This document shows positions 39,199 to 45,850 of a stretch of DNA of 64,000 bases, in pieces (position 1 is the first letter of the stretch; the number at the start of each line of letters is the position of its first letter). The notes under the pieces are model-generated. The model was not told the origin of the DNA and did not search any database. It was given only the letters and a program-made list of their open reading frames with translations. The position numbers were made by a program, and so were the translations under genes. This stretch comes from Thermoplasma acidophilum DSM 1728 (lineage in GTDB: Archaea > Thermoplasmatota > Thermoplasmata > Thermoplasmatales > Thermoplasmataceae): contig NC_002578.1 in assembly GCF_000195915.1 (NCBI RefSeq), positions 434,001 to 498,000 of the forward strand, read 5' to 3'.

Positions 39199-41397
39199 AT
39201 GGGAAGAAAGGAAGATAATATAGAGAAGGCTCTTAAAATTGTAGAGCATACTGAATTGATACGAAATATAGGTATTGTTGCCCATATAGATCACGGTAAG
39301 ACAACGCTCAGCGATAATCTTATTGCCGGTGCGGGTATGATGAGCGAGGAACTGGCCGGCAAGCAGCTGGTTCTTGACTACGATGAGCAGGAGCAGGCCA
39401 GGGGAATAACCATAAACGCCGCCGTTGCCTCCATGGTTCACACGTTTCAGGGTAAGGAATATCTGATCAACCTCATCGATACGCCCGGTCATGTGGACTT
39501 CGGCGGCGACGTCACAAGGGCCATGAGGGCCGTCGATGGCGTCATCGTGGTTGTTGATTCCGTTGAAGGTGTGATGCCGCAGACGGAAACTGTGATAAGG
39601 CAGGCGCTGAGGGAGCACGTCAAGCCGGTTCTCTTCATAAACAAGATAGACAGGCTGATCAACGAACTGAGGCTTAACAGCGATGAGATGCAGAAGCGCT
39701 TCACAAAGATAATAACGGATGTGAACAGGCTGATCTCCAAGTATGCGCCACAGCAGTTCACCAAGGAGTGGCAGGTATCTGTTCAGGATGGTCGTGTAGC
39801 TTTCGGTTCTGCGTACAACAACTGGGCAATATCAATACCGGCCATGGCCGAAACGAAGATCACGTTCAAGGATATCGTAGAGTATGTCAAGAACGGAAAG
39901 CAGAAGGAGCTTGCGCAGAAGAACCAGCTTCACAAGATCATACTCAACATGGTCATAAGACATCTGCCGGATCCAAAGACCGCACAGTCCTACAGGATAA
40001 AGCAGATATGGAAAGGCGATCTCGATTCAGAAATCGGAAAGGCCATGATAAACTGCGATTACAAGGGCCCAGTGGCGATGATGGTCACAAAGATAATCAT
40101 AGACCCGCACGCGGGTGAAATAGCTATAGGAAGGCTATTCAGCGGAACTGTGAAGAAAGGTACGGATCTGTACATATCTGGTGCCGGCAAGGGCAAGGTG
40201 CAGACACTGGCCATGATGGTCGGCCCTGACAGGATACCTGTTGATGAAATAACGGCAGGAAACATAGCGGCCATAGTCGGGCTGAAGGGTGCAATAGCAG
40301 GTGCCACGGTTTCGTCGCTGGAAAACATGGTTCCGTTTGAGCCAATGATACATTATTCAGAGCCCGTAGTTACGCTTGCAATAGAGGCAAAGCACACGGC
40401 AGATCTTCCGAGGCTCATAGAGGTGCTTCGTGACATATCAAAGGCAGATCCCTCGATACAGGTCGATATAAACCAGGAAACAGGAGAACACCTGATCTCC
40501 GGTATGGGTGAACTTCACCTTGATGTAACGCTTTACAGGATAAAGAACGATTACAAGGTGGAGGTTGAAACCTCAGATCCGATCGTGGTTTACAGGGAAA
40601 CGGTTGAGAAGAAGGGCGGCCCATTTGAGGGAAAATCACCAAACAAGCACAACCGCTTCTATTTTGAGGTTGAACCTCTCAAGCCAGAGGTCATTCAGGC
40701 CATAGAGGACGGCGATATACCGCAGGGTTCAAAGTTCAAGGATAAGAAGGCCCTCGTGGAGCTGCTGGTAAGCAAAGGCATAGACAGGGATGAGGCCAAA
40801 GGTCTGGTATGCGTCGAAGGCACCAACATGATGTTCGACGTGACAAGAGGTATACAGTACCTTGACGAGACCATGGAGCTTCTGATCGAGGCATTCGTGG
40901 AAGTAATGAACAGAGGTCCTCTTGCAAACGAGAAGGTCTTCGGTGTAAAGGCCAGGCTCGTTGACGCAAAGCTGCACGAGGATAGCATACACCGCGGTCC
41001 AGCCCAGGTCATACCTGCGGGAAGAAACTCCATATACGGTGCAATGTGTGAAGCAAAGCGTGTCCTCCTTGAACCGGTTCAGAGGGTATTCATAAATGTA
41101 CCGCAGGAGGAAATGGGAGCGGCAATAAATGAGATACAGCAGAGGCGTGGCATAATCGAGGACATGAAGCAGGAAGGCGATGAGATTTCGCTGACAGCCA
41201 AGGTGCCGGTTGCAGGTATGTTCGGTTTCGCGTCCGCGATAAGAGGCGCCACAGGCGGAAAGGTGCTGTGGAGCTTTGAGAACGCTGGCTACCAGAAGGT
41301 GCCTCCGGAGCTGCAGGATTCGATCGTCAGGTCCATAAGGGAGAGAAAGGGCCTGAGGCAAGAACCATACGATGCGGATTACTACGCATCGATGTGA
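39199..41397 (+). CDS. fusA: Translation elongation factor EF-2 (aEF2)
   Basis: A 732-residue ribosomal translocase. GTPase motifs: AHIDHGKTTLSDN, RGITINAA, DTPGHVDFGG and INKIDRL. Domain IV near 590 contains SIHRGPAQVIPAGRNSIYGA, where the modified His (diphthamide) lies further down in domain IV as VFGFASAIRGATGGK-like loop context. Length fits the archaeal family. It follows rps10 by 40 bp and overlaps the end of the convergent binding-protein gene by 16 bp. Confidence 0.97.
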   Translation: MGRKEDNIEKALKIVEHTELIRNIGIVAHIDHGKTTLSDNLIAGAGMMSEELAGKQLVLDYDEQEQARGITINAAVASMVHTFQGKEYLINLIDTPGHVDFGGDVTRAMRAVDGVIVVVDSVEGVMPQTETVIRQALREHVKPVLFINKIDRLINELRLNSDEMQKRFTKIITDVNRLISKYAPQQFTKEWQVSVQDGRVAFGSAYNNWAISIPAMAETKITFKDIVEYVKNGKQKELAQKNQLHKIILNMVIRHLPDPKTAQSYRIKQIWKGDLDSEIGKAMINCDYKGPVAMMVTKIIIDPHAGEIAIGRLFSGTVKKGTDLYISGAGKGKVQTLAMMVGPDRIPVDEITAGNIAAIVGLKGAIAGATVSSLENMVPFEPMIHYSEPVVTLAIEAKHTADLPRLIEVLRDISKADPSIQVDINQETGEHLISGMGELHLDVTLYRIKNDYKVEVETSDPIVVYRETVEKKGGPFEGKSPNKHNRFYFEVEPLKPEVIQAIEDGDIPQGSKFKDKKALVELLVSKGIDRDEAKGLVCVEGTNMMFDVTRGIQYLDETMELLIEAFVEVMNRGPLANEKVFGVKARLVDAKLHEDSIHRGPAQVIPAGRNSIYGAMCEAKRVLLEPVQRVFINVPQEEMGAAINEIQQRRGIIEDMKQEGDEISLTAKVPVAGMFGFASAIRGATGGKVLWSFENAGYQKVPPELQDSIVRSIRERKGLRQEPYDADYYASM

Positions 41398-42173
41398 TCT
41401 TTTTTATTTTTTAAAGAATCGTTCTTAATTTTATTTATCCATGGAAGAACATCAGTTATGAACGAAGGCCCGTGGTGCGCAAAGAAATCGTATTTTGACG
41501 GTGTAACGTAGACGTTTCCGTTCCTGTAGGCCCTGAGATCTGTCCATCCCCTTTCCCTGATGATATCGTCTGGAGATACGCTCCTGAACATCTTGGGTTC
41601 GAATATGATTATGTCCGGATCCATTGACTTCACGTAGCCAAAATCAGGTTGCAACCACTCTCTGCGTTCTCTCTGGTATATGGATTGTATGCGCATCAGC
41701 GAAAGCGCATCCGTTATATAGCTGTATGATCCGAACGATACCGGGCCACCGAGATCCAGCTCAATATAGCCCGTCATCACGTCGTTCGTGGCTTCTGGTA
41801 TCGATCTCAGCAGTTTATGGTAAAGATCCCTTGACGCATCCAGCGAATCGACCTCGAAACCAACCTTCATCACAAGGTCCAGTATTCCGGCAACCGTTGA
41901 CGGAAGCTCGAATTCCACCACGTGGTATTTCTCTGAAAGCTTTTCATAGAGCGCATGCGGATAGCCTGATATCAGGAAGACTGCATCAGGATCGATCTTT
42001 GACAGTATGTCCCAGCTGACGGTGCCGTAGCTTCCAACCTTTTTCTTTTTCCTGGCTTCCTCAGGATGCACGCAGAACGCCGAATTTCCCGCTATGTTAT
42101 CGCTTTCGCCTATCATATACAGGATCTCGGTCACCGCCGGGCTCAGGGACACGATTCTGCTGTACCTTCCCAT
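41382..42173 (-). CDS. BtuF-like helical-backbone binding protein without signal peptide
   Basis: A 263-residue protein of the cobalamin/siderophore-binding (BtuF/FecB) family. RIVSLSPAVTEILYMIGESD starts the first lobe, VGSYGTVSWDILSKIDPDAV and SDIIIFEPKMF-like segments follow, and a long backbone helix joins the lobes. It begins directly with the domain: no signal peptide or lipobox Cys is present, and no ABC permease genes are near. So it is either cytoplasmic, perhaps a corrinoid handler, or exported by unknown means. Its 3' end overlaps EF-2 by 16 bp. Methylmalonyl-CoA mutase elsewhere in the window does need B12. Confidence 0.8.
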   Translation of the reverse strand: MGRYSRIVSLSPAVTEILYMIGESDNIAGNSAFCVHPEEARKKKKVGSYGTVSWDILSKIDPDAVFLISGYPHALYEKLSEKYHVVEFELPSTVAGILDLVMKVGFEVDSLDASRDLYHKLLRSIPEATNDVMTGYIELDLGGPVSFGSYSYITDALSLMRIQSIYQRERREWLQPDFGYVKSMDPDIIIFEPKMFRSVSPDDIIRERGWTDLRAYRNGNVYVTPSKYDFFAHHGPSFITDVLPWINKIKNDSLKNKKDHIDA

Positions 42174-42321
42174 GGCCGGATGATGCCTGATGGGCTAATC
42201 TTACTTTGCATGAAATATACCGTATAACATGTTCATATTAGTGGAAAGTACGATATTTCAGTAATTTTTTCATTTTTGTTCTTTTCAGCAATGGTTTTTT
42301 CTCTCACCGGATCTTGAACAT

Positions 42322-42720
42322 ATGGCTGGCAATCTGATGATAGTGGACAACCTTGATCTGGGCTATCCCTTCGTAGCTGATAGCCTGAAGGCATACGATG
42401 AATATTCCCTTCTGATAACAGATGGCATAGTGATGGACTTCTCGGATCTGCCTGATGGGGTTAGGGTACAGCGCATACTGACCGTTTATCAGCTCATGAG
42501 ATCCATAGTTGAAGGCCCTAACTTACCCTACATAATAATGGCAAGATCCGACATATTCAATTCGTGGCCCTACCCGGATCTGGACAACCTTTACGATACC
42601 ATGAGGATGAAAACGTTCTATTCAGGTTCCGATATAATACTGATGGTCATTGGAGGCCGCATAGTGTTCAGGAACATGCTGCACGGTGAGATGTATGGGG
42701 AGGAGTACGCCCAGTACTAG
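42322..42720 (+). CDS. Hypothetical protein, first gene of the PolB2 operon
   Basis: A 132-residue soluble protein of unknown family. It alternates strands and helices (LLITDGIVMDFSDLP, LTVYQLMRSIVEG, LPYIIMARSDIFNSWP, SDIILMVIGGRIVFR), a pattern like the second half of a RecA/RadA-type ATPase domain, but it has no Walker A loop. If that reading is right, it would be an inactive RecA-like adaptor comparable to proteins found with translesion polymerases; this is inference. It overlaps the next gene by 35 bp, so co-translation is likely. The start ATG follows a pyrimidine-rich leader. Confidence 0.6.
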   Translation: MAGNLMIVDNLDLGYPFVADSLKAYDEYSLLITDGIVMDFSDLPDGVRVQRILTVYQLMRSIVEGPNLPYIIMARSDIFNSWPYPDLDNLYDTMRMKTFYSGSDIILMVIGGRIVFRNMLHGEMYGEEYAQY

Positions 42721-42934
42721 GCAGGCCCTGGACATGATAATCTCCGGCATGGAGGAGATGAAGAAGGTGATGCGTACCGGAGATGCAGAGATCCTTGAAG
42801 AACTTGTTAGACTTGGAAAGCAGCATGCGGCTGAGATCTCTTATGCAGGTATTGATGTGCAGCTTGGCTTTCTTCTGGCTATGATCCTGGAGGTGGCAAA
42901 ACGTACATCAATGCCAGGGGATCGGACAGGGTGA
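42686..42934 (+). CDS. Small helical protein, second gene of the PolB2 operon
   Basis: Up to 82 residues from a GTG at 42686; ATG codons at 42695 and 42734 are alternatives, and MIISGMEEMKKVMRTGDAEI at 42734 looks like the true core. All-helical with a hydrophobic last helix (VQLGFLLAMILEVAKR). It overlaps the gene before it and shares GTGA (42931-42934) with the polymerase start. The tight coupling predicts a polymerase-binding partner. No known family. Confidence 0.55.
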   Translation: MRCMGRSTPSTRQALDMIISGMEEMKKVMRTGDAEILEELVRLGKQHAAEISYAGIDVQLGFLLAMILEVAKRTSMPGDRTG

Positions 42935-44784
42935 CCCTGTACGAGTACGACGGCAGCCATGTGAGGAAAAGGGTATTTCAGAACACATCATGGATATTCG
43001 TAACAGGCGACAGATATGATATCGAAACCCTATACGATCAGCTTGATTCCACAAGGCTGAAATACGAATACAGTACAATGCCGGACATCTACGGCTATCA
43101 GGATGGTATAAAGATCTGGGTCAGGCCGTCGCACGCAAGGATGGTTGGGGAGATCATATTCTCCAACATAGGATACGGGAGAAGGTACAGGGTATACAAC
43201 GCGGACATAGATCCGGTTCTGCGTTTCATGGCATCCAACGGCCTCTCATTCTTTGAGATGCGGAGCGTATACGATCCGGATCCGGATCTGAACGTGGCCA
43301 TGGTAGATTGCAGCCATGGAAAGTGCATCGTTGACGGAGAAGCCATGGGTGACGGAAGGATCTATGATCGGCTGATGGATTCCCATGTGATCGTGTACGA
43401 AGGAACGGAACAATTCTACAGGAAGCTCATGGCCCTTGGCATTCGCGCCAGATACTATCCCGGGAAATCGTTCACATCGTACGGCCAGATATCCTACCGT
43501 GATTCGTATCTGGACATAGCGGACAGGATAGCGATAAATTCCAGGTCATTCTTCTATGCAGAGAGCGGATTGAGTGGCATATACGAGGTATCAAGGATAT
43601 CGCATCTGCCGCCGCTTTACGTATCAATAGTTACGCCGGGAACGGCCGTGTCATCAATGGAACTGGCGGAGGCCGTGAAGAAAGGCATGCTTGTGCCATT
43701 CAAGAAGGACGACCATGAGAATCCGAAGACCAAGTGGGAGATAATGGCAAAGGATAGGGGTGGGTTGATATTCCAGCCACTTCCCGGCCTGTATACGGAC
43801 GTGTATGAGATAGACTTCTCCTCGATGTATCCAAGCATAATAGTAAGGTACGATCTTACCCCGGGCCGCATAAGCTTTCTTCCAGAGGCACTCGAAGGCC
43901 TGCTCAGCAGGAGGCTCATTTATAAGAAAATGGATGGAGAGAGCGTGGTATACCACAGCAGGAACGTTGCGCTGAAATGGCTGCTCCTGACGTCCTTCGG
44001 ATACACCGGCTATAAAAATGCGAAGTTCGGCAAGATAGAGGTGCATGAGAGGATAACAGAGCTGGGCAGAAAGGCCCTGGCTGAAGCCATAGCCGTTGCC
44101 CATGAAAACGGTTTCGAGATGATACACGGTATCGTCGATTCGCTCTGGATAAGGGGTTCTGGCAGTATAGAACGGGTCGTTTCGGAGATAAGCAGGCGAA
44201 CGCGTATAGATATCGTGGTGAGCGGGCATTACCACTGGATAGCCTTTCTTCCGGAACGTGACGGTACAGGATCACCCTCGCGATACATCGGCCTTGACAC
44301 CTCTGGCAAATACAAGATACGAGGACTCATGATCAGGAGATCAGACGTGCCCGATCTGTGCAAGGCATTCCAAATGGATGCCCTAAGGGTACTGTCCTCA
44401 TGCACAGATACCAGATGCATATTGGAGAAGCGCAGGGAGATCATGGATCTGGAAAATTACTATCTGAGAAATATCAGGCATTTCCCGCGTTCCTATTTCA
44501 TGGTATCCAGGAAGATCACCAGAAGGCCGGATGAATACCATGTGAAGAACCTCACTAGATCAGCGCTGGATCTTTGCCGTGACGCTGAGGAGTTATCTCC
44601 GGGGCAGATGATAAGCTACTACGTAGTTGATGAAAAGAGGAAGATAGTTGATACAGACGGAGAAAATGGGATAGACTACGGTTACTACAGGAGATGCCTT
44701 ACGCGTGCCTTGGAAGAGATAAACTTCCTGTTTGGAAAGAACTGCAACATCAGGCGCTTAGAAGATTTTCAATCTTTTCAGTGA
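42931..44784 (+). CDS. Family B DNA polymerase, PolB2-like with altered motif C
   Basis: A 617-residue family B polymerase, shorter than replicative PolB (about 780). Motif A is complete: YEIDFSSMYPSII with Asp295. Motif B reads ALKWLLLTSFGYTGY (Lys349, Tyr358). Motif C reads MIHGIVDSLWI: the usual YGDTDS is GIVDS, so the first Asp is Ile401 while Asp403 remains. The N-terminal 270 residues show no clear exonuclease motifs, so proofreading is probably lost. These features fit the archaeal PolB2 group, thought partly inactive or translesion. GTG start overlapping the previous stop (GTGA). Its 3' end overlaps convergent cdc6 by 35 bp. Confidence 0.88.
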   Translation: MTLYEYDGSHVRKRVFQNTSWIFVTGDRYDIETLYDQLDSTRLKYEYSTMPDIYGYQDGIKIWVRPSHARMVGEIIFSNIGYGRRYRVYNADIDPVLRFMASNGLSFFEMRSVYDPDPDLNVAMVDCSHGKCIVDGEAMGDGRIYDRLMDSHVIVYEGTEQFYRKLMALGIRARYYPGKSFTSYGQISYRDSYLDIADRIAINSRSFFYAESGLSGIYEVSRISHLPPLYVSIVTPGTAVSSMELAEAVKKGMLVPFKKDDHENPKTKWEIMAKDRGGLIFQPLPGLYTDVYEIDFSSMYPSIIVRYDLTPGRISFLPEALEGLLSRRLIYKKMDGESVVYHSRNVALKWLLLTSFGYTGYKNAKFGKIEVHERITELGRKALAEAIAVAHENGFEMIHGIVDSLWIRGSGSIERVVSEISRRTRIDIVVSGHYHWIAFLPERDGTGSPSRYIGLDTSGKYKIRGLMIRRSDVPDLCKAFQMDALRVLSSCTDTRCILEKRREIMDLENYYLRNIRHFPRSYFMVSRKITRRPDEYHVKNLTRSALDLCRDAEELSPGQMISYYVVDEKRKIVDTDGENGIDYGYYRRCLTRALEEINFLFGKNCNIRRLEDFQSFQ

Positions 44785-45850
44785 GAACGCTCACAGGTAT
44801 GTCATATATGCTGATGACCTTCTTCACACCCTCTCCGCGCCCCTGCCCCTCAATCGATGAACTTATTATGCCGTTGTTTTCCAGCCGCTTTATCCTATCA
44901 TACAGATTTATGTCCTTCTTCCCGTACTGTTCGGATATGACGCTGAGGTTCCTGGAAATGCAATCCACGTCAGTGAACCTTGAGGCTGAAAGGCATCTGC
45001 ATATGGAGAGAAGCACCATCAGATCCTCATAGTCCATGGACGCAAGCTTGCTCTCGGTCACGAACGGGCTTATCATCGATCTTGCGGCCCTGACATCATC
45101 GAAGCTTATCTTCGGGGATCTCCTGTATTCAGCTATGTGTGCGGCCTTCGCTAGGATATCGATGCCAACGCGTGCGCTGCCGTACTCAGCGGAAACCTCG
45201 GCGATGTAATCCAGCACGTCTTCATCATATCCCTCCCCTGTCAGCGACTGCACCGCACGGTTCATCACGATCTGGTATATCTCGCCCTTCGTGTACCTCC
45301 TGAACTTTATCTCACTGAATATCCCATAGGATTTTCTGATCTTGGCATCGAAAAGTATTGCAGGATCCTCCATAACGACGAATATGGTTGATATGTTCAC
45401 ATCGAAGGAATCCTTGGATCTGAAGAGATAGTATAAGCCATCATAGTCCCCCTTCAGTATATTGGCCGCCTCGTCTATCACCAGTATGACATTTTTTCCC
45501 TGATTCCTGAGCAGGCCCTCGATCCTGGTGAAGAGACTCGCATATGAAGATCTCTCAGGCACGATTATGCCGAACTTGGAAAGGAAATCTATGAGCACGT
45601 TCTTTACGTATCTGTACGCGATCGCATTTACGTAAACGACCTGCGGATCCCTGATCTCCCTAGCCAGATACCTCATGGTGACGGTCTTTCCAGTTCCGGA
45701 ATCGCCGTAGAGTATGAGATTTGTGGTTATGCCGTTCTTCGTGGGCTTTATCACCGTTTCCATGATCCTCTCTATCTCACCATCTCTGGCCACCAGCCTG
45801 TCCGGTATGAACGAGGATTCCAGTATGGAGGGATTTACAAGTATAACCAC
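44750..45850 (-). CDS. cdc6: Orc1/Cdc6-type replication initiator
   Basis: A 366-residue AAA+ ATPase that binds origins and loads the MCM helicase. N-terminal FIPDRLVARDGEIERI is typical. Walker A is GDSGTGKT (49-56) and Walker B VILVIDEA (121-128). The sensor-1 area is STIFVVMEDPAILFD, followed by IKFRRYTKGEIYQIV, and the C-terminal winged helix occupies about 285-366. Only 30 bp separate it from the upstream MFS gene, but AATATATATGG (about 45866-45876) is a TATA box about 25 bp before the GTG start. No origin-like repeats were seen next to it. Confidence 0.9.
   Translation of the reverse strand: MVILVNPSILESSFIPDRLVARDGEIERIMETVIKPTKNGITTNLILYGDSGTGKTVTMRYLAREIRDPQVVYVNAIAYRYVKNVLIDFLSKFGIIVPERSSYASLFTRIEGLLRNQGKNVILVIDEAANILKGDYDGLYYLFRSKDSFDVNISTIFVVMEDPAILFDAKIRKSYGIFSEIKFRRYTKGEIYQIVMNRAVQSLTGEGYDEDVLDYIAEVSAEYGSARVGIDILAKAAHIAEYRRSPKISFDDVRAARSMISPFVTESKLASMDYEDLMVLLSICRCLSASRFTDVDCISRNLSVISEQYGKKDINLYDRIKRLENNGIISSSIEGQGRGEGVKKVISIYDIPVSVLTEKIENLLSA

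Follow-up and report, generated by a model that had tools for sequence, protein, structure and literature searches.

The overlapping three-gene set of a Thermoplasma acidophilum family B polymerase: a probable archaeal PolB2 mutasome operon

Positions 42322-44784 of the window analysed here (64,000 nucleotides of Thermoplasma acidophilum DSM 1728, an archaeal genome in a single contig of 1,564,906 bases) very probably constitute an archaeal PolB2 mutasome operon, in which PolB2 would be an active, exonuclease-deficient lesion extender working with iRadA and PPB2. Three co-directional overlapping genes are found there; the first encodes 132 aa, the second a small helical protein, and the third a B-family polymerase of 617 aa. 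The first-pass annotation had described these three overlapping genes, and the open reading frames are indeed present at 42322-42720, 42686-42934 (listed with 82 aa) and 42931-44784; the GTGA overlap of the second gene with the polymerase is likewise correct. The first overlap, given as 35 bp, is reduced to 26 bp because PPB2 almost certainly starts at ATG 42695 (see below). The features of the locus are the following.

42264-42301, + strand: conserved block 5′ of iRadA, possible promoter or regulator site
42322-42720, + strand: iRadA, putative degenerate RadA/Rad51 fold, 132 aa, without P-loop
42685-42690, + strand: probable Shine-Dalgarno GGTGAG of PPB2, which includes the GTG earlier taken as start
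42695-42934, + strand: PPB2 (arCOG07300-like), 79 aa from the corrected ATG, N-terminus MGRS
42931-44784, + strand: PolB2, 617 aa, whose GTG start overlaps the stop of PPB2
43753-43764, + strand: PolB2 D(K/R)GG loop, residues 275-278 (DRGG)
43813-43815, + strand: PolB2 Asp295, motif A
44125-44142, + strand: PolB2 motif C HGIVDS, residues 399-404, with Asp403
44750-45850, - strand: AAA+ gene of Orc1/Cdc6 type, conserved next to PolB2 and convergent with it

The three-gene system itself is already known. The PolB2 gene set was reported in 2014 (PMC4104785), and PolB2 with iRadA and PPB2 was published in 2025 as the "PolB2 mutasome" (PMC11791011). Our additions are modest: the corrected start of PPB2, the very small size of iRadA, the presence of the orc1/cdc6-like neighbour in 14/14 loci of the family, and the lack of a detectable Y-family polymerase in this genome.

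The polymerase is a PolB2, as it matches NF004416 over its full length (E=2.6e-269) and also Pfam DNA_pol_B. Its motif A (EIDFSSMYPS) carries Asp295 and its motif C (HGIVDS) carries Asp403; both aspartates had been reported as kept, and their numbering is right. The exonuclease region is worn, as had also been noticed: the PolB3 of the same genome has YGDTDS together with the exonuclease segments DVE, NIDGYDIP and YCIKD, and no counterparts of these three segments were found in PolB2. A polymerase scan of the genome contigs found no relatives, and those used for the counts below come from another genome set, which provided 20 Thermoplasmatota PolB2 loci (L034-L053), 14 of them from Thermoplasma's own family. 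Motif C reads HG[IV][IV]D[SC] in all 20, with [YF]GDTDS at this place in none, and the motif A aspartate is likewise invariant. Since the same form recurs in 20/20 loci, HGIVDS is a signature of the PolB2 family; this motif was already treated in 2008 (PMC2527604) and has been described as HxxxD (PMC8764526). The D(K/R) loop, the contact site of the PPB2 arm in the PolB2 mutasome, is present as DRGG, with D(K/R)GG in 17/20 loci and DAGG or DTGG in the remaining three.

Loss of the first motif C aspartate and the worn exonuclease had led to the proposal that the family is inactivated (PMC2527604, PMC4104785), PolB2 acting then as a catalytically dead scaffold or regulator. We consider this improbable here, as neither of the metal-binding residues, Asp295 and Asp403, varies among the 20 loci, and as the Sulfolobus Dpo2, which has the same HxxxD motif, equals the replicase Dpo1 in activity (PMC8764526). 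Dpo2 is devoid of exonuclease; its insertion opposite lesions is poor, but it readily extends mismatches (PMC8764526). The Sulfolobus PolB2 is active, with the role of an extender (PMC8764526, PMC7390963). Damage induces Dpo2 in S. islandicus, where it alone accounts for targeted mutagenesis (PMC7390963). By analogy with these homologs, the Thermoplasma PolB2 is most likely active and exonuclease-deficient, with Asp295 and Asp403 binding the metal ions, and would extend primers past DNA lesions within a damage-inducible complex, presumably of the 1:1:3 PolB2:iRadA:PPB2 stoichiometry of the published models (PMC11791011).

The two small proteins, which had been presented as unknown partners, can be assigned to iRadA and PPB2 (arCOG07300), even though neither of them drew an informative match from Pfam or NCBIfam. 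The first had been described as RecA-like without a Walker A loop, and this description holds in the predicted structure: the AlphaFold2 model built on 14 orthologs (pLDDT 83) alternates strands and helices in a RadA/RAD51-like fold, with XRCC3, Psy3, RadA and RAD51 chains among its Foldseek matches at a probability near 1, and no P-loop was found in the ortholog alignment. The best Foldseek match is BcsE, which lies outside the recombinases. A sequence link with the genome's own RadA was not found by hhalign, and a profile search of the PDB sequences gave no match. In the distant loci the gene at the iRadA position is longer (about 245-280 aa); four of these longer counterparts match Pfam Rad51 (E 5.7e-4 to 5.5e-11, three of them above the curated cut-off), and their P-loop region is eroded. 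The short and long profiles align through an 'RxxTxYQL' segment, though the link is a weak one (E=4e-4, probability 37%). Taken together, the modelled fold, the longer Rad51-matching forms and the position of the gene support the first partner being iRadA, an inactivated RadA, and one of the PolB2-linked RadA groups, arCOG07763, has been described as degraded beyond easy recognition (PMC4104785). Such a RadA remnant, devoid of ATPase, would dock on PolB2 in much the way that RadA subunits associate with one another.

The second partner is PPB2. It had been announced as small and helical, and the predicted model is indeed helical (pLDDT 89), with no significant match when its fold was searched against the PDB. 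The GTG at 42686, listed as its start, sits within GGTGAG (42685-42690), upstream of ATG 42695. We take GGTGAG to be a good Shine-Dalgarno for this ATG, from its complementarity to the 16S tail, and its GGTG is preserved in four Thermoplasma species. From ATG 42695 the protein opens with MGRSTPSTRQ. When 41 relatives were searched, 31/31 matches aligned from the first residue of this shorter form, and an alignment of 19 orthologs shows G2 and R3 without exception, with M1 and R9 at over 90%. ATG 42695 is thus almost certainly the true start, which restores the MGR(T/S) N-terminus. The published family has a conserved N-terminal 'MGRT' with Arg3 and Arg9, which in models contact PolB2, iRadA and probably DNA; its members are described as small and helical, and the models show PPB2 as a trimer (PMC11791011). 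The Thermoplasma PPB2 is likewise a probable trimer, whose MGR(T/S) arm would enter between PolB2 and iRadA.

Beyond PolB2, on the opposite strand, lies a convergent Orc1/Cdc6-like gene (Pfam Cdc6_lid and AAA_22), divergent in sequence, which slightly overlaps the 3′ end of PolB2 and occupies the same place in 14/14 loci of the family. When used as query it identified two such genes in the genome, itself included, and it is the weaker of the two against Orc1/Cdc6 models, falling below the TIGR02928 curated cut-off. The conservation of this gene, and a suggestion made in PMC4104785, could indicate that the gene set serves replication, through an alternative initiation or its regulation with the Orc1/Cdc6-like neighbour, lesion bypass being secondary. 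This is even less probable than a dead polymerase: the Sulfolobus operon is damage-inducible and required for targeted mutagenesis (PMC7390963), and the S. islandicus Orc1-2 regulates damage-responsive genes, including that of Dpo2 (PMC9738581). An enrichment of orc1/cdc6 genes near archaeal polB2 has been reported (PMC11791011). By analogy with Orc1-2, the local gene is a plausible candidate for a damage-response regulator.

On the 5′ side, the block at 42264-42301 is AT-rich and conserved in the upstream alignment of the Thermoplasma species. No other convincing copy was found in the genome, and we rejected it as a damage-regulon signal, its single exact half-copy elsewhere lying between transporter-like and TyrRS-like genes (named by eye). 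The Sulfolobus DDRE hexamer was not enriched upstream of iRadA, and damage induction of such sets is documented for Sulfolobales alone. Divergent from iRadA is a periplasmic-binding-protein-like gene (41382-42173, - strand; PF01497, E=5.8e-55), for which we saw no connection with the polymerase set. In one distant locus, an SRAP-like (abasic-site protection) protein, recognized by eye, is encoded just 5′ of the iRadA-like gene (L048:491-1225), which fits the published enrichment of SRAP near polB2.

The first-pass annotation had proposed a survey of the PolB2 neighbourhood, and the gene set proves to be conserved. In 20/20 Thermoplasmatota loci PPB2 directly precedes a PolB2 of the same strand, and the order iRadA-PPB2-PolB2 is found in 14/14 loci of the family; both adjacencies are more than chance. 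Pairwise dN/dS between the closest species is about 0.06 for PolB2, where synonymous sites are near saturation, 0.11-0.13 for iRadA and 0.17-0.20 for PPB2: all three genes are under purifying selection. A sequencing error, a pseudogene or a decaying gene, as the unusual motif C and the worn exonuclease might have suggested, is therefore ruled out by the motif form common to 20/20 loci, the open frames of the closest orthologs and the strong purifying selection, and the sister species, in which a restored motif C had been named as the sign of a local error, keep the PolB2 form.

The reading of the locus as a three-part, B-family mutasome-like set agrees with the published one (PMC11791011). The T. 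acidophilum locus shares with the S. islandicus Dpo2 operon the same three genes in a published order (PMC11791011, PMC4104785), a PolB2-group polymerase with the HxxxD motif C and degraded exonuclease motifs, an adjoining inactive RadA homolog without ATPase site (as judged from the fold match and the longer Rad51 counterparts), an adjoining PPB2 with its MGR(T/S) arm, and an Orc1/Cdc6 neighbour. It differs by its very short iRadA (132 aa) and by the lack of a detectable Y-family polymerase in the genome. The resemblance first drawn with the bacterial ImuA-ImuB-DnaE2 stands for the shared logic, in which a RecA-like protein and one further small protein accompany a specialised polymerase, and which is also that of Pol V (UmuC-UmuD′-RecA), but the bacterial polymerases belong to the Y and C families and ours to the B family: PF00817 had no match in the genome, neither a Y-family-like ImuB nor a C-family DnaE2 is found in the set, and the likeness is one of analogy alone. 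Eukaryotic Pol zeta is also a B-family enzyme without proofreading, but it retains a standard motif C and its subunits differ from the PolB2 set. To judge from Sulfolobus Dpo2 (PMC8764526), the likeness would extend to the role in extension, and Pol V and Pol zeta are the closer comparisons published for the PolB2 mutasome (PMC11791011).

Which enzyme inserts opposite the lesion? A profile search with PF00817 detected no Y-family polymerase in this genome, although it could miss a very divergent one; the same search was positive in control genomes, Sulfolobus and Haloferax among them. Of 25 family genomes, three had a Y-family polymerase above the cut-off, one of which (G046) is without a strong PolB2 match, and none was detected above it in the other 22. 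At abasic sites, neither Dpo2 nor Dpo4 is efficient by itself (PMC8721586). With Sulfolobus PolB2 inserting poorly (PMC8764526) and no Y-family enzyme detected here, we can only tentatively suggest that the complex bypasses lesions without a Y-family partner, either having gained an insertion ability mostly missing in Sulfolobus Dpo2 or relying on insertion by an unexpected polymerase.

In conclusion, a reading made from the sequence alone led to a real mutagenesis complex whose description is recent. With a probable extender PolB2 and no detectable Y-family inserter, Thermoplasma could serve as a natural test case for this system.
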